NCBI RefSeq assembly: GCF_017948595.1
Contig: NZ_JAGFBV010000006.1
Coordinates: 62,001 to 126,000, forward strand
DNA from: Flavobacterium geliluteum
Lineage (GTDB): Bacteria > Bacteroidota > Bacteroidia > Flavobacteriales > Flavobacteriaceae
Reading direction: 5' to 3'
Length of the DNA: 64,000 nt
The first letter of the stretch is position 1. Each line of letters starts with the position of its first letter. Shown piece by piece: positions 1 through 60,108 of the stretch. The notes under the pieces were generated by a model. The model was not told the origin of the DNA, did no database searches, and saw only the letters and a list, made by a program, of their open reading frames with translations. The position numbers and the translations under genes are program-made.

Positions 1-2602
1 CTTTTCGAATGTCTAATAGAAAAGATAAGCTTAGGTTTTTGTAAGTAAAAGTGTTTTGAAGGCCAATCACAAAATCAGGATTTCGATCACCTACAACTTT
101 AAAGTTTGGATCTTTAAGAGCAAAACCTGTGTTAGGATCAATAAGTGGCTGTCCGGCATTATTTCGTAAATAATCAACACCAGTCAGCGTAGTTGTTGGC
201 CCACCGGCTACTACTCCGCCACGTACGTTTCCGTAAAGCCATGTATCTGATACATAGTATTCTGAAACAACAGAAGGAAGGTTTAGTACCTTTGAACGGG
301 TTTTATTAAAATTAGCCATTACATCCCAAGAAAATTTTTCACCTTTTACAGGAGAGGCATTCAGGGTAATCTCTAAACCTTCATTTCTTAAATCTCCGAA
401 ATTAGCCGAAGTAAGAACAAATCCGGTTCCGTAACTCAAACGCATATTCTTTAAAATTGGGTCAACTGTTTTGGTGCTGTACACTGTAACGTCTAATCCT
501 ATACGATCGTTTAAGAATTTTAATTCGGCACCAAATTCATAAGCCAAACGAAACTCAGGAACTAAATTTGGGTTGGCACCTGTTACGCCATACCCATAAC
601 CGCCGTCTGTGGTTCCTTGGGGAGTAAAAACAGGCTCAGAAGAATACGGTGAAGGAATATTAGCTGCTTCTGCATAAGAAGCTCTCAATTTACCATAGGA
701 TAAGATTTCTTTTCCTTTTAAAGCGGGTAAGTTCGTAAAGACAAAACTACTTGATACAGAAGGGTAGAAAAAAGGATCTTTTAGTACAGAAGTCCAGTCT
801 TTACGACCTGTTAAGTTTAAAAAAGCAATTTTATCATAATCTAAATTAAATTCGGAGAAAAAGCCAATTACACGACTCTGAATAATTCTTTCCTGTGATC
901 TTTGGGTAGTGGCGTCGGTATTATTGATAGAATTAAAGTTAGGATCAAAAAACTTGGTTCCTGTTGTAGATAAAATTCTGTAATAATTGTCATTAATGGC
1001 ATTACCGATCATTAATTTGGTATTAAATTTACCAAAGGATGCTTTACCTGTTGCTAAAAAAGTGGTGTTTAGGTTACTGGTATTGGCGTAATAACTTTCG
1101 ATAAAACCACCGGGAGTAATACCTGCGGCAGATTCTGGGTGAATAGATCTGTAACCCTGAGCAGAATTAACATCCCAACCTACGCGACCGGTTAAGTTAA
1201 GCCACGAATACGGGTCATAAATCAAGCCAACATTGGTGATAAAACGATTGTTAAAGTCTTCTGCCAGATTTTTATTTACATCCCAAAAAGGGTTATCTGT
1301 CTCAGTATCTAATGTACCGGAAGTGATTTTTCGCCTGCTTCCGTCGGGATTCAAATAATTTTGAGCATTGTCATTGGCGGGCCAAGTCAATAGCGATAGT
1401 AAATATCCCGTAGTAAAACTTGAAGCAAGTCCTCCGGCTCCTCCTTTGGATGCTTTTTGGTTGTCTGATTTTGTAAAATTGAATGTGCCTTCTGATTTTA
1501 ATTTTGAAGATATTTTTGCAGAAGCATTTAAATTTGCTGTCAAGCGACTGTATCCTGTATTAGGAGTAACGCCTTCCTGTTCTAAATTAGAAACAGATAA
1601 TCGGTATGATGTTGTCTCCGTACCAGCTTCAAAAGAAATATTATGTGTTTTTGAAACTCCGGTTTTGAAGAAATTCTCAACATTATTATAAAATTGTGTT
1701 CCCGGTTCATAAGGGGCGCCAAATTGTCTTCGGTAATCAGTATTGGTTATTCCGTCACCACCTCGCTGATAAGTTGTTTGAATGTCCGGAAAACGATACA
1801 ACGTTTCAAATCGGGTGTTGTTAGAGTAGGTCAGTCTGCCGGTTCCGTTTTTACCTTTTTTGGTGGTAATTACAATAGCTCCGTTACCCGCTTGCATACC
1901 ATAAAGTGCTGCTGCCTCTGGGCCTTTTAGTATTACCACAGATTCAATATCTTCAGGATTTATGTCTGCGCCCCTATTAGTATAATCCTGGTTTCTGTTT
2001 GGAGCGTTAGAAATCAATAACTCCTGACTCAATGTTTCGTTATTTACGGGTAAGCCATCCACGACATACAGAGGAGAGTTGTTGCCGCTTAATGAGTTTA
2101 CACCTCTTAACTGAATTGCTGCCGAAGCGCCGGGAGCCCCAGTCGAACTCGTTACGGTAAGACCTGCAATACGACCTTGCAAAGCATTGGCAAAGTTAGG
2201 ACGTTGTGTGTCTGCAATATCTTTGCCTTTTACTTCCTGCACAGAATATCCAAGTGATGATTTGTTACGTACGATACCCATCGAGCCCACAACAGTAACA
2301 TTATTCAGAGTTTCAATACTTTCTGATAAGGTGATGTTGGATGCTGGATCGGTTGCTTTAATTTCTTTTGTTTCAAATCCGATATAGCTAATGATAAGGA
2401 TATCAGTTGGGTTAGCGTTTATCGAATATTTACCATCAAAATCAGTGACAGTACTTGTCTTTGTGCCTTTTATCAATATGGTAACACCGGGTATAGGGAT
2501 CCCATCGGCCTTGTTTTTAACGATTCCAGAGATTGTCTTTGTTTGCGCAAATGTTATTTGTACGAGAAAAAACAACAATGAAAAGAGGAGAATTTTTTTC
2601 AT
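1..2602 (-). CDS. SusC/RagA-family TonB-linked outer-membrane receptor, 3' end cut by window edge
   Basis: The reading frame stays open from an ATG at 2602 down to the left edge (867 complete codons), so the C-terminus lies outside the window. Translated by eye it begins with a hydrophobic signal peptide ending in TFAQ (about residues 1-20), then a carboxypeptidase-regulatory-like beta domain (about 22-100) and a TonB plug domain (about 115-230) with the SusC-type stretches LQGRIAGLTVTSS, QLRGVNSLSGNNSPLYVVDG and KGPEAAALYG. The rest is a beta-barrel; the last visible residues (NLSLSFLLDIRKK) are typical of the final barrel strands, so perhaps 100 residues are missing. SusC proteins import glycans or peptides across the outer membrane with a SusD lipoprotein, which would be expected just left of the window. 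Substrate cannot be told. Several plus-strand ORFs antisense to it are shadows. Confidence 0.95.
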   Translation of the reverse strand, partial: MKKILLFSLLFFLVQITFAQTKTISGIVKNKADGIPIPGVTILIKGTKTSTVTDFDGKYSINANPTDILIISYIGFETKEIKATDPASNITLSESIETLNNVTVVGSMGIVRNKSSLGYSVQEVKGKDIADTQRPNFANALQGRIAGLTVTSSTGAPGASAAIQLRGVNSLSGNNSPLYVVDGLPVNNETLSQELLISNAPNRNQDYTNRGADINPEDIESVVILKGPEAAALYGMQAGNGAIVITTKKGKNGTGRLTYSNNTRFETLYRFPDIQTTYQRGGDGITNTDYRRQFGAPYEPGTQFYNNVENFFKTGVSKTHNISFEAGTETTSYRLSVSNLEQEGVTPNTGYSRLTANLNASAKISSKLKSEGTFNFTKSDNQKASKGGAGGLASSFTTGYLLSLLTWPANDNAQNYLNPDGSRRKITSGTLDTETDNPFWDVNKNLAEDFNNRFITNVGLIYDPYSWLNLTGRVGWDVNSAQGYRSIHPESAAGITPGGFIESYYANTSNLNTTFLATGKASFGKFNTKLMIGNAINDNYYRILSTTGTKFFDPNFNSINNTDATTQRSQERIIQSRVIGFFSEFNLDYDKIAFLNLTGRKDWTSVLKDPFFYPSVSSSFVFTNLPALKGKEILSYGKLRASYAEAANIPSPYSSEPVFTPQGTTDGGYGYGVTGANPNLVPEFRLAYEFGAELKFLNDRIGLDVTVYSTKTVDPILKNMRLSYGTGFVLTSANFGDLRNEGLEITLNASPVKGEKFSWDVMANFNKTRSKVLNLPSVVSEYYVSDTWLYGNVRGGVVAGGPTTTLTGVDYLRNNAGQPLIDPNTGFALKDPNFKVVGDRNPDFVIGLQNTFTYKNLSLSFLLDIRK

Positions 2603-2630
2603 AAGATGTTAGTTATTTATGGTTAGTAAG

Positions 2631-2638
2631 CAAATATA
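2631..2638 (-). promoter_or_regulatory. Putative -7 promoter box (TATATTTG) of the SusC-type gene
   Basis: The reverse complement reads TATATTTG, matching the Bacteroidota -7 consensus TAnnTTTG, about 28 nt upstream of the ATG at 2602. No TTG at the usual 19-23 bp spacing is obvious, so promoter strength or activator dependence is open. The paired GCAT boxes lie directly upstream. Confidence 0.5.
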
Positions 2639-2655
2639 TAGATAATTTTAATAAA

Positions 2656-2832
2656 ATGCGATTTTATGCAATATTTTTGTTTTAAATATTAAATAATGCA
2701 AAAAAATGCATTTAAAAAATAAACACTAAATTATAGTTGTTAAAATTTTTAGAATGACTTAATTTGGAGGTATAATTGCGTTATTGTGCTTTATTTTATT
2801 TTAATTAGCTTAAAAAACGCATTTATTTGCAT
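2656..2832. repeat. Paired GCAT/ATGC boxes at 10-bp phase (candidate operator)
   Basis: On the plus strand ATGC occurs at 2656, 2666, 2696 and 2706, and GCAT at 2819 and 2829, so each pair has starts exactly 10 bp apart, one helical turn. A weaker pair of TGC boxes, also 10 bp apart, lies at 3294 and 3304. The pairs sit just upstream of oppositely directed TATATTTG boxes at 2631-2638 and 2852-2859. This is what a regulator binding direct half-sites on one DNA face would leave. The function is inferred. Confidence 0.4.
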
Positions 2833-2859
2833 TAAAATTTAATTTTTATAGTATATTTG
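2826..2859 (+). promoter_or_regulatory. Putative plus-strand promoter: TTTG - 22 bp - TATATTTG
   Basis: TTTG at 2826-2829 and TATATTTG at 2852-2859 are separated by 22 bp, within the range described for Flavobacterium promoters (-33 TTG, -7 TAnnTTTG). It points into a region without a recognisable gene; the next clear plus-strand gene starts 767 bp later and has its own box. It could drive a small RNA, a long leader or a short peptide. Confidence 0.45.
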
Positions 2860-3175
2860 CCTTTTTTCAATATAAATTAATAATACTTTTAAAAATAGAA
2901 TTGTTGTTTGTGTAAAAGTAATAGTGATTTGAGGATCTTAAATTTTTAAAATTTATTGTATCTTTTTTAAAATTCAGATACAAGTTGAGTATTATGAGTA
3001 ATTAAAATAGCCTATTTCATTTTCGACAAGTAAAAAAAGAATAAAAAAGCTGTTTTTTAAATTTTAAATAATTCTTATTCAGTATAATTACGTAAAAAAT
3101 AACATTCGATTATAAGAGAATTAAACGCTGTTTTTTTAATATATGGACAAATTTTAATTAGAATAATCATATCAA

Positions 3176-3235
3176 ATGGCTTCAGATAACTATCAGGATT
3201 GCTATTGTTTAAGATGTAAATCTGTCTTTGTGTAG
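3176..3235 (+). CDS. Possible 19-codon small ORF with cysteine pattern
   Basis: An ATG opens a 19-codon frame whose peptide contains CYCLRCKSVFV. It stands out because the surrounding sequence is stop-rich AT filler, while this stretch has a more gene-like composition. It could be a real micropeptide, a remnant of a longer zinc-ribbon gene, or chance. No clear ribosome-binding context is seen and no homologue is recognised. Confidence 0.15.
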   Translation: MASDNYQDCYCLRCKSVFV

Positions 3236-3566
3236 TAATATTTAAAGTAAAAAAGGTACTATTATCAAAGGAAATTTAAAAAACTAGATAAAGTGCGTTT
3301 TTCTGCAATTAGTGAATAAAAAAATAAGTTCAGTAAAAAGAATCGATTTTATTTATTTAGGATTGAAAACCAAGTGATCGTTGCATTAGTGAGATGTTGG
3401 TTTATGCGAGACAATCGTACAGCATTTGAGCTAAATGATAGAAATCTAAATAAAAAATACAGAATAAAATTAGAGATTTGAGTTTAACGAAATTTACGGT
3501 TTTAAAAGGATTTAAACGTTATTTTTTTAATCTTTATGAAGTATCAAATAACAATTGAAATTACAG

Positions 3567-3574
3567 TATTTTTG
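3567..3574 (+). promoter_or_regulatory. Putative -7 box (TATTTTTG) of the FAD/Fe-S dehydrogenase gene
   Basis: TATTTTTG matches TAnnTTTG and lies 52 nt upstream of the ATG at 3626. No TTG is found at the ideal upstream distance. Confidence 0.4.
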
Positions 3575-3625
3575 TACTCGTAATACAAGTATTTAACCAG
3601 TTTTAGGCAATAAATTTAGTATATA

Positions 3626-6538
3626 ATGTCAATAAATAAGGAGTTACAGCAATTATCAGCATCTTTAGAAGGAACACTTTTATACGATGACCTACATAAA
3701 ACCCTATATTCTACCGATGCCTCGGTGTACAGAATAAAGCCCAAAGCGGTTGCCATACCAAAAACCAATGAAGATATTAGTAAACTGATTCGGTTTGCCG
3801 CAAAACACCATGTTTCGATTACGCCTCGAACGGCAGGAACTTCTTTAGCGGGACAGACGGTTGGCGACGGAATTGTGGTAGATGTTTCTAAAAATTTCAC
3901 TAGAATACTTTCTTTCAATCTCGAAGAGAAAACGGTGACGGTACAACCCGGGGTGATTCGTGATGAGCTAAATTTATTCTTAAAACCTTATGGCGTTTTT
4001 TTTGGTCCTAATACTTCGACTTCTAATCGTTGTATGATTGGCGGTATGGTTGGTAATAATTCATCGGGGACAACTTCAATTCGTTACGGCGTAACCCGAG
4101 ATAAAATTGTTGCCATAAAAGCCATTTTGAGTGATGGTTCTGAGGTTGTTTTTAATGAACTGACTTCGGAAGAATTTATCGAAAAAACCAAAGGTGAAAC
4201 ATTAGAAAATAAAATTTACAAAAGTATTTACGAAGAACTTTCTAATAAAGCTACGCAGGAAGAAATTATAAAAGAGTTTCCTAAGCCCGAAATTCACAGG
4301 AGAAATACGGGTTATGCGGTCGATATTTTATTAAAATCGGATTTGTTTGGAGGAACCGAACCAACAATAAATTTAGGTAAATTACTTTGTGGAAGCGAAG
4401 GAACACTTGCTTTTACCACCGAAGTTACCTTAAAAGTAGATGATTTGCCGCCCGCAAACAATATTATGGTGGTGGCGCATTACCACAGCATTCAGGAATC
4501 GCTGGAATCTGTGGTAGTGGCAATGAAACATCATTTATACACTTGCGAAATGATTGATGATACGATTTTAGATTGTACCAAAACGAATCGTGAGCAATTT
4601 AAAAACAGATTTTTTTTGGTCGGAGAACCAAAAGCAATTATGATGTTTGAAGTCGCTTCTCATGATAGGCAAGATGCCGAAAATCAAGCCAATGCTCTGA
4701 TTGAAGATCTGGAAAAAAATAATTTTGGTTATGCGCTCGTAAAAATATACGGCCCTGATATTGATAAAGTTAATGAGCTTCGTAAAGCCGGTCTCGGACT
4801 TTTAGGAAGCATCGTAGGCGATGATAAAGCGGCCGATTCTATTGAAGATACTGCAGTAGAATTGAGTGATTTACCCAATTATATTGCCGAATTTTCGGCG
4901 ATGATGCTCCGTCACGGCCAGGAAGCGATTTATTATGCGCATGCTGGAGCGGGAGAATTGCATTTGCGACCTGTTTTGAATTTAAAGAAAACATCCGATC
5001 TCAAATTATTTAGAACCATCGCAACCGATGTGGCGATTTTGGTCAAAAAATACCGAGGCTCTTTAAGCGGTGAACACGGCGACGGAATTGTACGTGGCGA
5101 ATTTATTCCGTTTATGATTGGCGACACCAATTATGAATTATTAAAACGAATTAAATTGGCATTCGATCCCAACTCGGCTTTGAATATCGGTAAGATTGTC
5201 AACGCTTTAAAAATGGATGAAAACCATCGTGTGATATCCGGTAGAGTAGAACCAAATATTAAAACGTTTCAGGATTTCTCTGACAGTTTAGGGATTTTGC
5301 GTGCCGCCGAAAAATGCAACGGTTCTGGCGATTGCAGAAAATTACCATCGGCAGGAGGAGCGATGTGTCCGAGTTATCGCGCTACCAAAAACGAAAAAGA
5401 AACGACCCGTGCAAGAGCCAATGCGTTGCGCGAATATTTGACATATTCTGAAAAAGAAAATAAATTTGACCAAAAAGAATTATATGAAGTTTTTGAGTTG
5501 TGTGTGAGTTGCAAAGCTTGTGCGAGCGAATGCCCAAGTAATGTGGATGTTGCAACGCTGAAAGCTGAATTTTTATATCAATATCAAAAGGCAAACGGAT
5601 TCTCGACCCGAAATAAAATTTTTGCTCACAACGCCAAACTAAATAAAATGGGAAGTTTATTTCCTTCAATTACCAATTTTATTTCGAATCAGTCTTTGGT
5701 AAAAAAAACGATGGGAATCGCACCCGAAAGAGAGGTTCCTTTGCTGGCCAGGAAAACGTTTAGGAAGTGGCATGCTGCTTTTCAAGCAAAGAATAAGAAC
5801 ACTAATTTTACCAATGGGCGAGTGTATTTATTTGTGGATGAATTTACCAATTATTATGATGTAAACATCGGGATTGATGCTTTTGAGTTATTGTCTCACT
5901 TGGGTTACGAAGTTTTGGTTATATCTCACGAAGAAAGCGGAAGAGCCTATTTATCGAAAGGATTTTTAGAACAGGCAAAAAAAATTGCCAACACAAATAT
6001 TCAAATTTTTAAAGATCTGGTTTCTTCAGAAGTTCCTTTGATAGGAATAGAACCTTCGGCAATCTTAACCTTCAGAGACGAGTATTTACGTTTGGCAGAT
6101 GATAAAGCTTCCGCTGAAAAAATAGCAAAAAGTACTTTTACGATAGAAGAATTTTTCAAAAACGAAATTACTTCAGGCAATATTACAGCAGATTCATTTT
6201 CGACAGAAAAGAAAGAAATTAAAATTCACGGACATTGTCATCAAAAATCATTAAGTGCTATCGAGGCAACTTTTGCTATGTTGAACTTGCCAATAAATAA
6301 TGTTGTTACCATTTATAATTCAGGATGTTGCGGAATGGCGGGTTCTTTTGGTTACGAAAAAGAACATTATGGTGTAAGCATGCAAATGGGTGAGGACACT
6401 TTATTTCCAAAAGTGAGAGCCACTGCCGAAAATGTAAAAATAGCCGCTGCCGGAACCAGTTGCCGCCATCAAATTTATGACGGAACAAGCAGAGAAGCAC
6501 AACATCCTATAACTATTTTAAGAAGTTGTTTGAAGTGA
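3626..6538 (+). CDS. FAD-linked oxidase / Fe-S D-2-hydroxyacid dehydrogenase (YdiJ/GlcD-GlpC fusion type)
   Basis: The 970-residue protein fuses an FAD-dependent dehydrogenase to a ferredoxin-like, CCG-domain C-terminal half, the layout of E. coli YdiJ (about 1018 aa) and D-lactate/D-2-hydroxyglutarate dehydrogenases. Visible are the PCMH-type FAD-binding segment (TPRTAGTSLAGQ near residue 67; GGMVGNNSSGTTSIRYG near 145), an FAD-oxidase C-terminal domain with SGEHGDGIVRGEF near 485, two cysteine clusters (around 562-580 and CVSCKACASECP near 625) for 4Fe-4S clusters, and C-terminal CCG-type motifs (HGHCHQKSL near 867, SGCCGMAGSFGYE near 899). It probably oxidises a D-2-hydroxyacid and passes electrons to a quinone or other acceptor. 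The exact substrate cannot be read from sequence. It stands alone, with its own promoter box. Confidence 0.88.
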   Translation: MSINKELQQLSASLEGTLLYDDLHKTLYSTDASVYRIKPKAVAIPKTNEDISKLIRFAAKHHVSITPRTAGTSLAGQTVGDGIVVDVSKNFTRILSFNLEEKTVTVQPGVIRDELNLFLKPYGVFFGPNTSTSNRCMIGGMVGNNSSGTTSIRYGVTRDKIVAIKAILSDGSEVVFNELTSEEFIEKTKGETLENKIYKSIYEELSNKATQEEIIKEFPKPEIHRRNTGYAVDILLKSDLFGGTEPTINLGKLLCGSEGTLAFTTEVTLKVDDLPPANNIMVVAHYHSIQESLESVVVAMKHHLYTCEMIDDTILDCTKTNREQFKNRFFLVGEPKAIMMFEVASHDRQDAENQANALIEDLEKNNFGYALVKIYGPDIDKVNELRKAGLGLLGSIVGDDKAADSIEDTAVELSDLPNYIAEFSAMMLRHGQEAIYYAHAGAGELHLRPVLNLKKTSDLKLFRTIATDVAILVKKYRGSLSGEHGDGIVRGEFIPFMIGDTNYELLKRIKLAFDPNSALNIGKIVNALKMDENHRVISGRVEPNIKTFQDFSDSLGILRAAEKCNGSGDCRKLPSAGGAMCPSYRATKNEKETTRARANALREYLTYSEKENKFDQKELYEVFELCVSCKACASECPSNVDVATLKAEFLYQYQKANGFSTRNKIFAHNAKLNKMGSLFPSITNFISNQSLVKKTMGIAPEREVPLLARKTFRKWHAAFQAKNKNTNFTNGRVYLFVDEFTNYYDVNIGIDAFELLSHLGYEVLVISHEESGRAYLSKGFLEQAKKIANTNIQIFKDLVSSEVPLIGIEPSAILTFRDEYLRLADDKASAEKIAKSTFTIEEFFKNEITSGNITADSFSTEKKEIKIHGHCHQKSLSAIEATFAMLNLPINNVVTIYNSGCCGMAGSFGYEKEHYGVSMQMGEDTLFPKVRATAENVKIAAAGTSCRHQIYDGTSREAQHPITILRSCLK

Positions 6539-6772: not shown

Positions 6773-8713
6773 ATGGCATTATCAGGTTTATTCCGAAAAA
6801 AAACGGTACAAGATATTCTCAAACAAGTTGCAAAGAACGAAGCAGATGGTCATAATGCGTTAGGAAAACACCTGACAACGAGAGATTTAACTGCATTTGG
6901 AATTGCGGCTATCGTAGGAGCTGGTATTTTTAGTACCATCGGAAAAGCTAGTGCAGACGGTGGTCCGGCGGTTATTTTTTTGTTTTTGTTTACGGCTTTA
7001 GCATGTAGTTTTGCTGCTTTTGCTTACGCCGAATTTGCTTCGATGGTTCCGGTTTCAGGAAGTGCCTACACGTATTCGTATGTTGCATTTGGTGAAATAA
7101 TAGCCTGGATTATTGGTTGGGCTTTAATTATGGAATATGCCGTAGGAAACATTACCGTAGCCATATCTTGGAGTGATTATTTTACGGGACTCCTCCAGAG
7201 TGGCGGAATTCATCTCCCACAATGGATTCAGATGGATTATTTAACGGCCTCAAACGGTTATAATGATGCAACCTCTTTAATGCAGGGTGGTAAAGCTTTT
7301 GAAAATTTAAGCGCTTCTTTGCAAGCTTCCTATACTGCCTGGACAACAGCACCAACAATTGGTTCTTTTCATTTTGTGGCTGATTTGCCAGCTTTGTTCA
7401 TTATTGTTTTGATTACGGCTTTGGTTTACAGAGGTATGAAAGAATCTCGTAATGCCAGTAATGTGATGGTCGTTGTCAAGCTTTGTATTGTACTTTTGGT
7501 GATTGCGGTGGGTGTATTTTATGTAGATACCGCCAATTGGGATCCCTTTGCTCCAAATGGCGTTAGTGGCGTTTTAAAAGGGGTTTCGGCAGTTTTCTTT
7601 GCTTATATAGGTTTTGATGCGATCTCTACAACCGCTGAAGAATGTAAAAATCCGCAACGAGATTTACCACGCGGAATGATGTGGGCGATTATTATTTGCA
7701 CGATTTTATATATTGCCATTGCATTAGTTCTGACTGGAATGGTGTCTTATAACCAATTAAATGTGGGTGATCCTTTGGCTTTTGTTTTTGAAAAATTAGA
7801 CTTAAAATGGATGTCAGGAATTATTGCCGTAAGTGCCGTAATTGCTATGGCGAGCGTTTTGTTGGTTTTTCAAATGGGACAACCTCGTATTTGGATGAGT
7901 ATGAGCCGAGATGGTCTTTTGCCTAAGAAATTTTCTACGGTGCATCCAAAATACAAAACGCCATCATTTGCTACGATTGTAACAGGTTTTGTAGTAGCGG
8001 TTCCGGCTTTATTTTTAAATTTAACAATGGTAACCGATTTATGTAGTATCGGGACTTTATTTGCCTTTGTGTTGGTATGTGCGGGAGTTTTGGTTTTACA
8101 AAATAAACCTGAAATTCCGAGAGGAAAATTCAAAACACCGTATGTAAATTCAAAATTTATCATGCCAGTCCTTTTGATTGCGGGTTTGTATTATGCTTTT
8201 GCTTATAATAATAAAGCGACTATGGCTTTTATAAATAATGAAGCACAGACCAACGATGCCACAACGATTATAACATCATTAAATAAAGAGGAATCAACTA
8301 AAGTTTTCGATTATTTGCAAAGTATCAACTTTCATAAAAAAACTTCGGAAACTTCAGATTTAGAGCATTTATTGAGTCAGTATCAAGATGATGATGCAAA
8401 ATATGCTGAGGTTGTAAAGGGCTTACCAATTAATGATTCGCTAAAATACGAATCAGGTTTCAGTTTATTCAAACACAAAATTCCAATGTGGATTTTCTTA
8501 ATCGTTTTGGTTGGATTAGCTGTTTGGGCTTTTAGAAAAAACCTGTCATTAATTCCGCTTTTGGGACTTATTTGTTGTCTCTATATGATGGCTGAATTAA
8601 GCGTTTGGAACTGGATTTACTTTACAATTTGGTTATTAATAGGCCTATTTATTTACTTCACTTACAGTAGAAAAAACAGTAAATTGAACTTCGTTGAAGA
8701 GGTTAAAATTTAA
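6773..8713 (+). CDS. APC-superfamily amino-acid permease (YfnA/cationic amino-acid type) with extra hydrophilic insertion
   Basis: The 646-residue integral membrane protein has the APC signature at its start: an N-terminal amphipathic lead, then TM1 with GIAAIVGAGIFSTIG (about 44-58), the conserved EFASMVPVSGSAYTYSYVAFGE (TM3), and FFAYIGFDAISTTAEE (about 277-292) of the cationic amino-acid transporter subgroup. About 12-13 hydrophobic segments are visible. It is longer than typical YfnA-like permeases (about 460-490 aa). The extra length is mainly a soluble stretch at about 480-565, rich in D/E/K/N, between two late TM segments, plus a loop near 145-195. It likely imports amino acids by proton symport or exchange; specificity is unknown. 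It is monocistronic and ends at a strong terminator. Confidence 0.88.
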   Translation: MALSGLFRKKTVQDILKQVAKNEADGHNALGKHLTTRDLTAFGIAAIVGAGIFSTIGKASADGGPAVIFLFLFTALACSFAAFAYAEFASMVPVSGSAYTYSYVAFGEIIAWIIGWALIMEYAVGNITVAISWSDYFTGLLQSGGIHLPQWIQMDYLTASNGYNDATSLMQGGKAFENLSASLQASYTAWTTAPTIGSFHFVADLPALFIIVLITALVYRGMKESRNASNVMVVVKLCIVLLVIAVGVFYVDTANWDPFAPNGVSGVLKGVSAVFFAYIGFDAISTTAEECKNPQRDLPRGMMWAIIICTILYIAIALVLTGMVSYNQLNVGDPLAFVFEKLDLKWMSGIIAVSAVIAMASVLLVFQMGQPRIWMSMSRDGLLPKKFSTVHPKYKTPSFATIVTGFVVAVPALFLNLTMVTDLCSIGTLFAFVLVCAGVLVLQNKPEIPRGKFKTPYVNSKFIMPVLLIAGLYYAFAYNNKATMAFINNEAQTNDATTIITSLNKEESTKVFDYLQSINFHKKTSETSDLEHLLSQYQDDDAKYAEVVKGLPINDSLKYESGFSLFKHKIPMWIFLIVLVGLAVWAFRKNLSLIPLLGLICCLYMMAELSVWNWIYFTIWLLIGLFIYFTYSRKNSKLNFVEEVKI

Positions 8714-8740
8714 AAGTTATATGTAAAAAGTTATATGTAA

Positions 8741-8775
8741 AAAACCGTTCTGAGATTGATCAGAACGGTTTTTTT
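8741..8775 (+). terminator. Rho-independent terminator after the permease gene
   Basis: Perfect 9-bp stem CCGTTCTGA (8745-8753) / TCAGAACGG (8760-8768) with a 6-nt loop and a T run. Just upstream, AAAAGTTATATGT is tandemly duplicated (8713-8739). Confidence 0.9.
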
Positions 8776-8856
8776 ATGTTTTTTCGTATTTTGTGTGATT
8801 TCTCCTTTGTCAAAATGACAAATTGGTGTGCAATATTGATTTCGTAAAAAAAATTA

Positions 8857-8903
8857 CCACGAATTCACAAATTAATTTGTTTTAAAAATTTGTCAATTCG
8901 TGG
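8857..8903. repeat. Dispersed inverted repeat (CCACGAATT family)
   Basis: CCACGAATTCACAAAT (8857-8872) is mirrored by ATTTGTCAATTCGTGG (8888-8903). Similar CCACGAAT/ATTCGTGG arms occur at 33411-33500, 33600-33690 and 42338-42413. It lies between convergent genes. Confidence 0.6.
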
Positions 8904-8951
8904 TGAAAAATTGTAATTTAGTAATCTAAGATGTCTAAAATCTAAGTTAGT

Positions 8952-10157
8952 CTAATTTAAAATCCCTAATTCCACCATACAAGCTTTCATCATTTCGTAA
9001 GTGCGCTGAATGTCGTTGTCTAAACCAATAGAGAAACGAATCAAACCATCGGTAAGTCCCATCTCTTTTTGTTCTTCCATCGGGATCTCGCTCGAAGTAG
9101 ATGTCCCAGGAGCGCTGAACAATGTTTTGTAGAAACCTAAGCTCACAGCCAAATATCCTAAATTTCTCGCTTGCATCAATTCCATCAATTCATTGGCTTT
9201 GGCCAAAGTTCCAACGTCAATAGTCAGCATTCCGCCAAAACCATATTCCGGATTGATCATTGTTTTGTAAAGTTCGTGGCTTGGATGGCTTTTTAGCCCC
9301 GGATAAACGGTTTTTAGACCCTCTTTTTCAAATTGATCCGCCAGAAAATGCGCGTTATGACTGTGTTGCTTGATACGAATATGCAACGTACGAAGATTTT
9401 TCATCACACTCGCAGAACGTAAACTGTCCATTGTAGGGCCCAAAAGCATGCTTGCGCCAGAATTTACATTTTTCAAAGCATTAATAAATTCTTTTGATGC
9501 ACACGTTACACCACCAACCGTATCGCTGCTGCCGTTAATGTATTTTGTCAAACTATGAATCACAATATCTGCGCCTAATTTGGCTGGCGAAACAGACAAT
9601 GGCGAAAATGTATTGTCAACAACCAACGTCAAATTATGTTTTTTAGCAATTTGCGCCAATCCAGCAATATCAGCCACTTCCAGTAGCGGGTTGCTCACCG
9701 TTTCGCAATATAAAACCTTTGTTTTAGCGGTAATTGCCGCTTCTACAACCTCTAATTTTGTAATGTCTACAAACGAGGTTGCAATTCCAAAACGAGGTGT
9801 GAAATTCTTCAAAAAAGCATAGGTTCCTCCATAAATTGTACGGCTCGAGATAATATGATCGCCTGCGCTGCAAAGTTGCAATATAGTAGGCGTAATGGCA
9901 CCCATTCCAGAGGCCGAAACATTCGCCGTTTCTGTGCCTTCCATCGCTGCCAAAGCCTGGTCTAAGTACAAATTACTCGGCGACGAATGGCGCGAATACA
10001 AATAACAGCCCTCCATGTTGCCTTCAAAAGTGTCAAACATGGTTTTGGCCGAAAGAAAGGTGTAAGTCGAAGAATCAGAAATCGACGGATTTACACCACC
10101 AAATTCGCCAAAGTATTGCAGATCCTGAATTTTATCTGCTGGGTTAAAGTCTTTCAT
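8952..10157 (-). CDS. Cys/Met-metabolism PLP-dependent enzyme (methionine gamma-lyase / cystathionine synthase-lyase type)
   Basis: The 401-residue protein is a fold-type I PLP enzyme of the trans-sulfuration family. The PLP lysine is K205 in HSLTKYINGSSDTVGG. Family hallmarks are YLYSRHSSPSN (about 52-62), the phosphate-binding SASGMGAI (about 81-88), DNTFSPLSVSPAKLGADIV (about 181-199) and a C-terminal RFSIGLD. Such enzymes make or break C-S bonds in methionine, cystathionine or homocysteine in the cytoplasm. Subgroup assignment from sequence alone is unreliable; methionine gamma-lyase is a fair guess. It is divergent from an Lrp/AsnC regulator gene 393 bp away, which suggests amino-acid-responsive control. 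A dispersed element sits within 10 nt of its start codon. Confidence 0.85.
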   Translation of the reverse strand: MKDFNPADKIQDLQYFGEFGGVNPSISDSSTYTFLSAKTMFDTFEGNMEGCYLYSRHSSPSNLYLDQALAAMEGTETANVSASGMGAITPTILQLCSAGDHIISSRTIYGGTYAFLKNFTPRFGIATSFVDITKLEVVEAAITAKTKVLYCETVSNPLLEVADIAGLAQIAKKHNLTLVVDNTFSPLSVSPAKLGADIVIHSLTKYINGSSDTVGGVTCASKEFINALKNVNSGASMLLGPTMDSLRSASVMKNLRTLHIRIKQHSHNAHFLADQFEKEGLKTVYPGLKSHPSHELYKTMINPEYGFGGMLTIDVGTLAKANELMELMQARNLGYLAVSLGFYKTLFSAPGTSTSSEIPMEEQKEMGLTDGLIRFSIGLDNDIQRTYEMMKACMVELGILN

Positions 10158-10163
10158 TTTTAT

Positions 10164-10200
10164 GTCATTGCGAGGAACGAAGTACTCGAGCGCAGCGAAC
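10164..10200. repeat. GTCATTGCGAGGAACGAAG-type dispersed element
   Basis: GTCATTGCGAGGAACGAAG (10164-10182), followed by a GC-richer tail with GAGCGCAGCGAACTGAG, resembles GTCATCCTGAGAAACGAAG at 11095-11113. It lies directly upstream of the PLP enzyme start codon. Confidence 0.45.
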
Positions 10201-10244
10201 TGAGCGTAAGCTAACTCATCCTCAGGTTAATATTTATAATTTTT

Positions 10245-10378
10245 AGAAGCTATTTCCTGCTATCCGTTTCAATCTTTTGCTTTTTAAAGAAAAAAGCAAA
10301 AGGATTTCCACTTCAAACGAAGTTCACTGAACTCCACTTAAAATAAGAATCATGTGAAGTAATCAGGGCTAGGGCACT
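10245..10378. repeat. Dispersed hairpin-core repeat, type A (reverse orientation, with insertion)
   Basis: Read on the minus strand it runs from GCCCTGATTACTTCA, through an inserted segment, to ATCCTTTTGC, a perfect stem (CTTTTGCTTTTT 10274-10285 / AAAAAGCAAAAG 10291-10302), then GAAACGGATAGCAGGAAATA. The flanks match copies at 30661-30740 and 51903-51986 while the stem sequence differs. Confidence 0.6.
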
Positions 10379-10550
10379 TGTTTTCAAAACAAAATTCATT
10401 CAAAATAACATCTTATTAGAAAAATAATCAACTATATGTTTTGTATTTAGATTTTAAAACCATAAAAAGTAAAATTTTTAAATTATTATTCTAAATTTAC
10501 TCTATAAAACATCAATCAATAGATTTTCTTTCATCTCACAACTTCAAAAA

Positions 10551-11006
10551 ATGACTTTAGACGCCACCGACAAAAAACTCCTTGTTTTACTGCAAACCGA
10601 CAGCAAAAAAACTACCAAAGAATTGTCCTTAAAACTCAATCTTTCGGTAACTGCAGTGTATGAGCGAATCAAGAAGTTAGAGCGCGAAGGCATCATCAAA
10701 AACTATGTGGCGCTGGTCGATAAAACCAAAATCGAAAGAGGTTTTGTCGTGTTCTGTCATCTAAAACTCATTCAGCATACCAAACAATTCCTGACCAAAT
10801 TCGAGAGCGAAGTCATTCAGCTCAACGAAGTTTTAGAATGCCATCACGTAAGTGGCGACTATGATTATATCCTCAAAGTTTTGGTAAAAGACATGGAAGC
10901 CTACAGAGAATTTTTGGTAACCAAGCTCACCACTTTGCAGCATATTGGAAGCACACAAAGTATGTTTATGATCAATGAAGTGAAGAATTCTACGGTTATT
11001 TTTTAA
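10551..11006 (+). CDS. Lrp/AsnC-family transcriptional regulator
   Basis: At 151 residues this is the normal size for the family. The N-terminal winged helix-turn-helix (about 4-60) includes LDATDKKLLVLLQTDSKKT and LNLSVTAVYERIKKLEREGI, the standard Lrp recognition helix region. The C-terminal RAM ligand-binding domain (about 70-145) has HHVSGDYDYILKVLVKDMEAY, including the G-D-Y-D core. It likely binds an amino acid and forms octameric or dimeric rings. Divergence from the PLP-dependent sulfur amino-acid enzyme gene suggests it regulates that gene and possibly itself. The ligand is not known. Confidence 0.93.
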   Translation: MTLDATDKKLLVLLQTDSKKTTKELSLKLNLSVTAVYERIKKLEREGIIKNYVALVDKTKIERGFVVFCHLKLIQHTKQFLTKFESEVIQLNEVLECHHVSGDYDYILKVLVKDMEAYREFLVTKLTTLQHIGSTQSMFMINEVKNSTVIF

Positions 11007-11094
11007 GTTGTGGAGGTTCTGAGTTGCTAAGTTTTTGAGGTTTTGCTGCAAAGATTCGCAGGGACAAAGGCTCAAAGTTTTTTTCGCTCTTTTT

Positions 11095-30660: not shown

Positions 30661-30740
30661 GACGTCTCGTCCCGCTGTACGCTAAATCTTTTGTGGCGAA
30701 CCCCGCCACAAAAGGATATCGCTACCATCAGGGCTAGTTT
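30661..30740. repeat. Dispersed hairpin-core repeat, type A (reverse orientation)
   Basis: On the minus strand it reads GCCCTGATGGTAGCGATATC, CTTTTGTGGCG, loop, CGCCACAAAAGATTTAGCG, then TACAGCGGGACGAGACG. It is the same element as 51903-51986 but with a different stem sequence. Confidence 0.65.
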
Positions 30741-51902: not shown

Positions 51903-51986
51903 GCCCTAGCCCTGATGGAAGCGACATCCTTTTTCTGGCTTTTTTTGCCAGGAAAAGATACAGCGGACAGCAGGAAATAGCTTCTA
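51903..51986. repeat. Dispersed hairpin-core repeat, type A (forward orientation)
   Basis: GCCCTAGCCCTGATGGAAGC, then GACATCC, then a stem with CTGGC and GCCAG arms, then AAAAGATACAGCGGACAGCA and GGAAATAGCTTCT. It fills the gap between rlmF and the thiamine pyrophosphokinase gene and touches the latter's 3' end. Confidence 0.65.
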
Positions 51987-60035: not shown

Positions 60036-60108
60036 GATATCTTATAATTATGGTTTTTATATAGAGCAACATTCACGGATCTCGCCAGAGGTTAGTCTAA
60101 TTTTGGTG

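Follow-up and report, generated by a model that had tools for sequence, protein, structure and literature searches.

Tandem direct repeats as putative operators of a DeoR-family regulator at a peptidoglycan amino-sugar locus of Flavobacterium

In Escherichia coli, MurNAc catabolism is regulated by MurR, a member of the RpiR family that controls murQP. The regulator that we propose here for Flavobacterium would likewise act on MurNAc catabolism and is, like MurR, a presumed sugar-phosphate sensor, but it belongs to the DeoR family. With respect to gene content, a described counterpart is murT-murK-murQ of Tannerella forsythia, in which a MurQ etherase is found together with a sodium-symporter-type transporter (PMC5790795). 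The Flavobacterium locus has this combination and adds to it SusC/D pairs, NamZ, AnmK, a GH3/beta-lactamase protein and a DeoR gene; the words DeoR and regulator are absent from the main text of the T. forsythia paper (PMC5790795). With respect to the regulator and its sites, the system resembles the DeoR-type RhaR groups (PMC3870299) and AxgR (PMC8579813) as outlined in those reports, namely in a protein with HTH_DeoR and DeoRC domains, in operators made of 10-bp direct repeats, and in a local mode of action, with the regulator gene inside the locus and few sites elsewhere in the genome. The operators of RhaR are described as two imperfect direct repeats with a periodicity of 10–11 bp (PMC3870299). 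The present system differs from RhaR and AxgR, as reported, in its half-site (about AWAAYGCA), in the arrangement of two operators 40 or 51–52 bp apart, and in its target, a SusC/D-type locus for peptidoglycan amino sugars. Judged by title and the opening of the abstract, none of the papers listed in literature searches describes this regulator.

The window is a stretch of 64,000 nucleotides from Flavobacterium geliluteum, for which a preliminary description had reported GCAT boxes at a 10-bp phase between two opposing promoter boxes, next to a SusC-type gene. We consider it highly probable that a DeoR-family regulator, one that senses a sugar phosphate, has these boxes as its operators and controls a peptidoglycan amino-sugar (MurNAc/GlcNAc) locus. 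Regulator, operator and genes can then all be put to the test for the way in which a large genus of environmental bacteria scavenges bacterial cell-wall sugars. The SusC-type gene, here called susC2 (2–2602, minus strand), encodes a SusC/RagA-type TonB-dependent transporter, with Plug, CarbopepD_reg_2 and TonB_dep_Rec domains (Pfam) in its part within the window; it runs off the window and is the outermost gene of the locus. The locus, on contig C79, codes on one side for SusC2, SusD2, a DUF4397 protein, NamZ and a GH3/beta-lactamase protein, and onward for the DeoR-family protein (on the other strand), SusC1, SusD1, MurQ, an SSF symporter, AnmK, a NagX-like protein and a GHL10 protein. MurQ (TIGR00274, 327.5 bits, cut-off 302) and AnmK (NF007149, 671.1 bits, cut-off 616) exceed the respective cut-offs, NamZ_N, NamZ_C and SSF domains are present, and the NagX and GH3 matches are below the curated NCBIfam cut-offs. 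Judged by these genes, which include MurQ, AnmK and/or NamZ and a transporter, the set that we take to mark a MurNAc/peptidoglycan amino-sugar locus, susC2 is the end of a locus for the uptake and breakdown of MurNAc and GlcNAc. There are two SusC/D pairs in the own-genome locus, one with its susC at 8011–11076 (minus) of the sequence L051 and the other with the susC of the window, and both susC genes have two operator pairs upstream, 40 bp apart.

Three pairs are located where the preliminary description had placed them, with ATGC at 2656/2666 and 2696/2706 and GCAT at 2819/2829, each with a period of 10 bp. The set was incomplete, however, as it lacked a fourth, weaker pair, TGCGTTATTGTGCT at 2777–2790. 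Pair A (2657–2670, minus; TGCAtaaaatCGCA on that strand) is proximal to susC2 and identical in L057 and L195, which carry the two best-aligned copies of the region, and pair B (2697–2710, minus; TGCAttttttTGCA) lies 40 bp upstream of it. Pair C, the weaker one (plus; TGCGttattgTGCT), has a counterpart TGCGTTATTGTGCA in the same place in L057, and pair D (2818–2831, plus; CGCAtttattTGCA) is 41 bp from pair C. Pairs B and D were defined by their sequence and by comparison with L057 and L195. The window thus has two pairs per promoter, A and B for the minus promoter and C and D for the plus promoter. The promoter boxes TATATTTG are also as claimed, opposing each other, with 17 and 19 bp to the closest GCAT, one at 2631–2638 (minus, susC2 promoter) and the other at 2852–2859 (plus, former nagB promoter). 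Both are identical in L057 and L195, and both fit the -7 consensus reported for Bacteroidota sigma-A, TAnnTTTG (PMC9723704).

In order to define related loci, genome contigs were scanned with four DeoR proteins, which gave 154 confirmed relatives, and the best 80, corresponding to 79 loci, were kept. Within the fetched flanks of deoR in these loci, murQ is present in 68/79 and namZ in 51/79, and nine loci, some of them short-flanked, have none of murQ, anmK, namZ and GH3. The upstream counts cover 78 of the 79 loci, excluding L083, where the upstream gene is not divergent. At least one YGCA-N6-YGCA pair is found within 320 bp before deoR in 77 of the 78 (the exception is L097), and at least two pairs in 62, counts that are not independent because the loci are the best DeoR matches and are mutually related. 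In the 300 bp before deoR the 78 loci contain 190 pairs with this gap, and each of the gaps N0–N5 and N7–N10 gives 0–3. Larger gaps are also low, except for N11 (15), N26 (18) and N36–N38 (33, 33 and 13). The N26 and N36–N38 peaks arise from the distances between the two upstream pairs, which are 40 bp (15 cases), 51 bp (35) and 52 bp (10), and the N11 peak has no explanation from pair distances; L056 has distances of 10 and 30, one case each. A third pair near deoR lies at a distance of 60–63 bp (37 cases), 79–80 bp (2) or 83–84 bp (12). On this comparison of sequences, the GCAT boxes with their spacing are a genuine feature that has been conserved among Flavobacterium species. The preliminary description had made its reading depend on boxes and spacing being conserved in orthologous loci, and the related loci have them with a single favoured spacing.

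The comparison also indicates what it is that has been conserved. All four pairs are also present, identically arranged, in L057, where the susC is a different one, and the susC genes beyond the two best-aligned copies are other paralogues (in L195, 46% identical to susC2; in L057, with susC1 as the best label, at 26%), so that the region is conserved and not one orthologous susC. On the other side of deoR, the first ORF to reach 150 aa in the 79 loci is nagB (33), a ydiJ-type dehydrogenase (24), an esterase (6), lemA (3), or another gene or none (13). The interval from deoR to the next gene contains a pair in 66/79 loci, with nagB in 29/33, with ydiJ in 22/24, with the esterase in 6/6, with lemA in 3/3 and with the others in 6/13. 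In L058 the pair TGCAAATTCGTGCA occurs three times within 2.6 kb (12160, 14583 and 14694), perhaps as part of a small repeated element.

A TGCA box is palindromic, and a single site therefore does not tell a direct repeat from an inverted one; as the pattern behind the first logo also excluded CGCA-N6-TGCG, the type of repeat was derived from a count of all NGCN-N6-NGCN pairs. Upstream of deoR we counted 37 CGCA-N6-CGCA and 1 TGCG-N6-TGCG, against 1 CGCA-N6-TGCG and 0 TGCG-N6-CGCA, and in the 200 bp after deoR there are 43 TGCG-N6-TGCG and none of either inverted kind. The recount identifies the repeat as direct and not inverted, and together with the spacing scan and the logo it gives the DeoR-type pattern of direct repeats with a period of about 10–11 bp. 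The half-site is oriented, about AWAAYGCA, and is repeated in tandem at 10 bp. Site B carries it twice on the deoR strand, and site A reads in this sense on the strand of susC, which means that the two operators point in opposite ways. In the window, pair D is oriented opposite to its counterparts in L057 and L195, which we count against our best explanation. Its core (CGCATTTATTTGCA, in the stretch 2810–2840) matches exactly the L057/L195 core (TGCAAATAAATGCG) in reverse complement and is flanked by TTAAA-like sequences, and a micro-inversion of this short stretch is possible.

From its linkage and domains, the likely regulator is the DeoR-family protein encoded in the same locus (P0001), which has an N-terminal HTH_DeoR domain (PF08220, E 2.5e-14) and a C-terminal DeoRC domain (PF00455, E 3.6e-38); the best NCBIfam models, GlpR_Halo, AgaR and SrlR, all score well below their cut-offs. 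Its gene (C79:53801–54550) and susC1 are divergently oriented, the operators of the window are about 10 kb away, and the protein is one of two DeoRC proteins in the genome. Among 61 genomes sampled first, those with the SusC nearest to that of the window were G054, G017 and G045 (75%, 74% and 63% identity), and in all three YGCA boxes lie upstream of the susC relative and deoR directly adjoins it in divergent orientation. The regulator gene is thus linked to the operators in these three genomes as well as in the own-genome locus. The earlier idea of an operator for a regulator of the SusC-type locus holds to the extent that the sites look like operators, matched and conserved, with binding by DeoR being a prediction. 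A TGCA-N6-TGCA pair inside deoR itself (TGCAGAAAAATGCA type; for example at L053:8231, L054:14956 and equivalents) sits in conserved coding sequence; it was regarded as coding and left out of the counts.

In the mechanism that we propose, each operator would be one such tandem repeat, and a regulated promoter would carry two of them, as a rule oppositely oriented, at a distance of 40 or 51–52 bp, values about one helical turn apart. A DeoR oligomer probably grips both sites on one face of the DNA, covering the -33 region, and DeoR would most likely be a repressor, released once an amino-sugar phosphate of the pathway binds the DeoRC domain. DeoR-family sugar regulators are mostly repressors. 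The sites of the window flank two divergent promoters, that of susC2 (minus) and the old nagB promoter (plus), and the latter, with nagB decayed, would now read through the relic towards the gene of a FAD/Fe-S D-2-hydroxyacid dehydrogenase.

The same protein could act at the same sites as an activator. Bound at site A, over the -33 region, and at another site 40 bp farther upstream, it would recruit RNA polymerase to promoters without a -33 box. We regard this as rather unlikely, although the window itself lends it some weight, as the susC2 promoter has no clear -33 box and pair A is 9 bp farther from the -7 box than in most loci, which makes activation possible. In addition, the inner YGCA box stands in place of that -33 box, with the second pair 40 bp upstream, and the ‘L-fucose operon activator’ model NF007720 matches DeoR weakly (88.8 bits against a cut-off of 259). 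In most loci, however, a shorter distance separates the site from the -7 box, with its outer half overlapping the -33 position, an arrangement that fits better with occlusion, and RhaR of R. leguminosarum is described as a negative regulator (PMC3870299).

That the sites belong to a different, unlinked regulator, with deoR a mere neighbour, is improbable. The 10 kb between the own-genome deoR and the window's operators speaks for it, but pairs accompany deoR in nearly all of the 78 loci, they are present at both own-genome susC promoters and on either side of deoR, and there is just one other DeoRC gene in the genome. More distant DeoR relatives supply evidence in both directions. An order-wide sample gave a DeoR match at E 1e-40 in 29/296 genomes, more distant DeoR paralogues included. 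Among four intermediate loci, with DeoR at 44–53% identity beside susC, GH3 or namZ, L264 and L283 have a YGCA pair; L263 and L265, with no YGCA pair in a similar locus, favour an unlinked regulator, as does L272, a DeoR relative outside the MurNAc setting that has two TGCA-N6-TGCA pairs at -51 and -19. No YGCA pairs were found in nine other distant-paralogue loci (L274–L282). Against this, in six loci from other Flavobacteriaceae genera (L266–L270 and L273), where a DeoR 34–39% identical is followed by murQ and faces nagB, four have another 10-bp tandem repeat at the same place, TGCTG/GCTGT in L268, L269 and L270 and AAACAG in L267, as found by an exact search with patterns chosen after reading the sequences and with no shuffle control; the same patterns gave none in L266 and L273. 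With a different repeat in these distant loci, the association of the regulator with murQ and nagB seems older than the YGCA motif. The HTH of DeoR in the six loci reads S[IV]DT[AIV]RRD in place of SEDTIRRD.

SusC/D loci are often controlled by hybrid two-component systems or by ECF sigma/anti-sigma pairs, and on that general ground the GCAT boxes might be the target of such ordinary PUL control. This is very improbable here: the 19.9 kb of L051 contain 13 ORFs of at least 130 aa (11 of them scanned for domains and profiles, the remaining two being susC1 and a piece of susC2), and no sensor kinase, ECF sigma or anti-sigma gene was seen among these. In the portion of susC2 that the window covers, Pfam detects no secretin/STN domain either, so that L051 does not have the make-up of a locus controlled in this way. 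Chance repeats in AT-rich intergenic DNA can be dismissed almost entirely, as the unremarkable count of ATGC-N6-ATGC over the entire window (5 against 2.03 expected, reached in 6/100 shuffles and thus not significant) is overridden by the local cluster at 2603–2880 (3 pairs in 278 bp against a shuffle mean of 0.025, reached in 0/5000 dinucleotide shuffles) and by the conservation of one favoured spacing over 78 loci. A motif as common elsewhere as expected from base composition would also have spoken against the preliminary description, and the sites withstand this test too.

Elsewhere in the genome such sites are few. GCAT-N6-GCAT-N14-24-TATATTTG has two matches in 4.38 Mb, both at the window site, and the reversed-pattern control has none. 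The strict pattern has 16 matches in the own genome, of which 10 are in ORFs, 5 (four distinct sites) in the window's locus and one elsewhere (C43:2089, not inside an ORF but overlapping an ORF end). A search before other susC genes had been suggested as a check, and these 16 matches argue against a general susC motif. A loose pattern with the -7 box was discarded as too unspecific (11 genomes gave 44 matches, and the reversed control 10); in the own genome, 3 of its 9 matches are in the window's locus.

The plus promoter of the window has lost its gene. The best DNA match among 398 genomes, G178, aligns with window positions 2540–2885 (75% over the intergenic region) and has, after the plus promoter, an intact 638-aa gene of nagB type (glucosamine-6-phosphate deaminase + PIG-L) followed by a homologue of the dehydrogenase (91%); its susC on the opposite side is just 46% identical to that of the window. 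In the window, blastn and tblastn detect a decayed relic of such a nagB gene at 2861–3535 (plus; outer limits approximate). The best pieces, at 3149–3328 and 3470–3528, are collinear (blastn 54.5 and 40.1 bits, with 0/200 shuffles reaching 40), and a C-terminal peptide is recognisable at 3463–3528 (tblastn E 9e-6). A deoR relic in the gap 2861–3625 was considered and rejected (best tblastn E 0.22). The matched control of a divergent transcript that had been suggested is therefore half right, in that the sites are matched on both promoters but the gene of the divergent promoter is lost. The ‘weaker TGC pair’ at 3294/3304 exists (3294–3307, plus), but it lies inside the nagB relic, where the aligned stretch of L195 is intact nagB coding sequence, and it is rejected as an operator. 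Three other intact nagB paralogues (58–68% identity) are found elsewhere in the own genome and may have made the loss of the original tolerable; in the stretches fetched around them there are no pairs outside ORFs.

The first intact gene past the relic (3626–6538, plus) encodes a FAD-binding, 4Fe-4S D-2-hydroxyacid dehydrogenase of the ‘ydiJ’ type (970 aa), with the Pfam domains FAD_binding_4, FAD-oxidase_C and 4Fe-4S. A probable -7 box of its own, TATTTTTG, is located at 3567–3574 (plus), within a 90% identical block common to L195. The best NCBIfam model, D-2-hydroxyglutarate dehydrogenase YdiJ, gives 604 of 1350 bits, far under the cut-off, and the solved relatives of the N-terminal part include D-lactate, glycolate and 2-hydroxyglutarate oxidoreductases. 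MurQ is reported to yield GlcNAc-6P and D-lactate (PMC5790795), and 69 of the 79 loci (best 80 of 154 relatives) have a homologue of the dehydrogenase in the deoR flanks that were fetched, which makes a role as D-lactate dehydrogenase plausible from gene neighbourhood.

Other loci may have gone the same way. Among 30 loci searched that have no nagB after deoR, traces of nagB were found in three, L089 (E 1e-11), L094 (E 0.009) and L116 (E 0.34, weak), strong in L089 alone, and in all three the next intact gene after deoR is the dehydrogenase. In L057 the sequence behind the plus promoter yielded no credible trace of nagB, and neither did the interval from deoR to ydiJ of L058. We aligned 17 of the 24 loci with the dehydrogenase next to deoR and without nagB there. 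Columns 21–120, which contain the operator pair, a second degenerate pair and the -7 box, have a mean pairwise identity of 0.79–0.96 per 20-column bin; it is 0.58 in columns 1–20, 0.37–0.76 in columns 121–300, and 0.73–0.86 in columns 301–350, beside the dehydrogenase gene. Traces of nagB are present in two of the 17 alone (L094 and L116), and in the remaining ones the gene order suggests that the less conserved stretch is a nagB relic. Since the promoter block exceeds the following stretch in conservation, its present role may be to drive the FAD/Fe-S dehydrogenase gene farther downstream; among genomes as close as these, the pattern is only suggestive of selection on the promoter after gene loss. 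Tentatively, and with rather more doubt than confidence, we propose that after repeated loss of nagB the DeoR-controlled promoter was kept by selection and re-used for the dehydrogenase, a candidate for consuming the D-lactate from MurQ, that the window represents one such promoter capture, and that this DeoR clade is a MurNAc-catabolism regulator of Bacteroidota. With the 17 aligned loci, nature provides a series of regulated promoters that seem to have survived the genes they served, from which one could learn how orphan promoters are kept or re-used.

Elsewhere in the window, three copies of the Flavo-1 RNA score above the Rfam gathering score (51904–51981, plus; 30664–30739, minus; 10249–10328, minus), and an L19-Flavobacteria ribosomal protein leader is found at 60067–60094 (minus).
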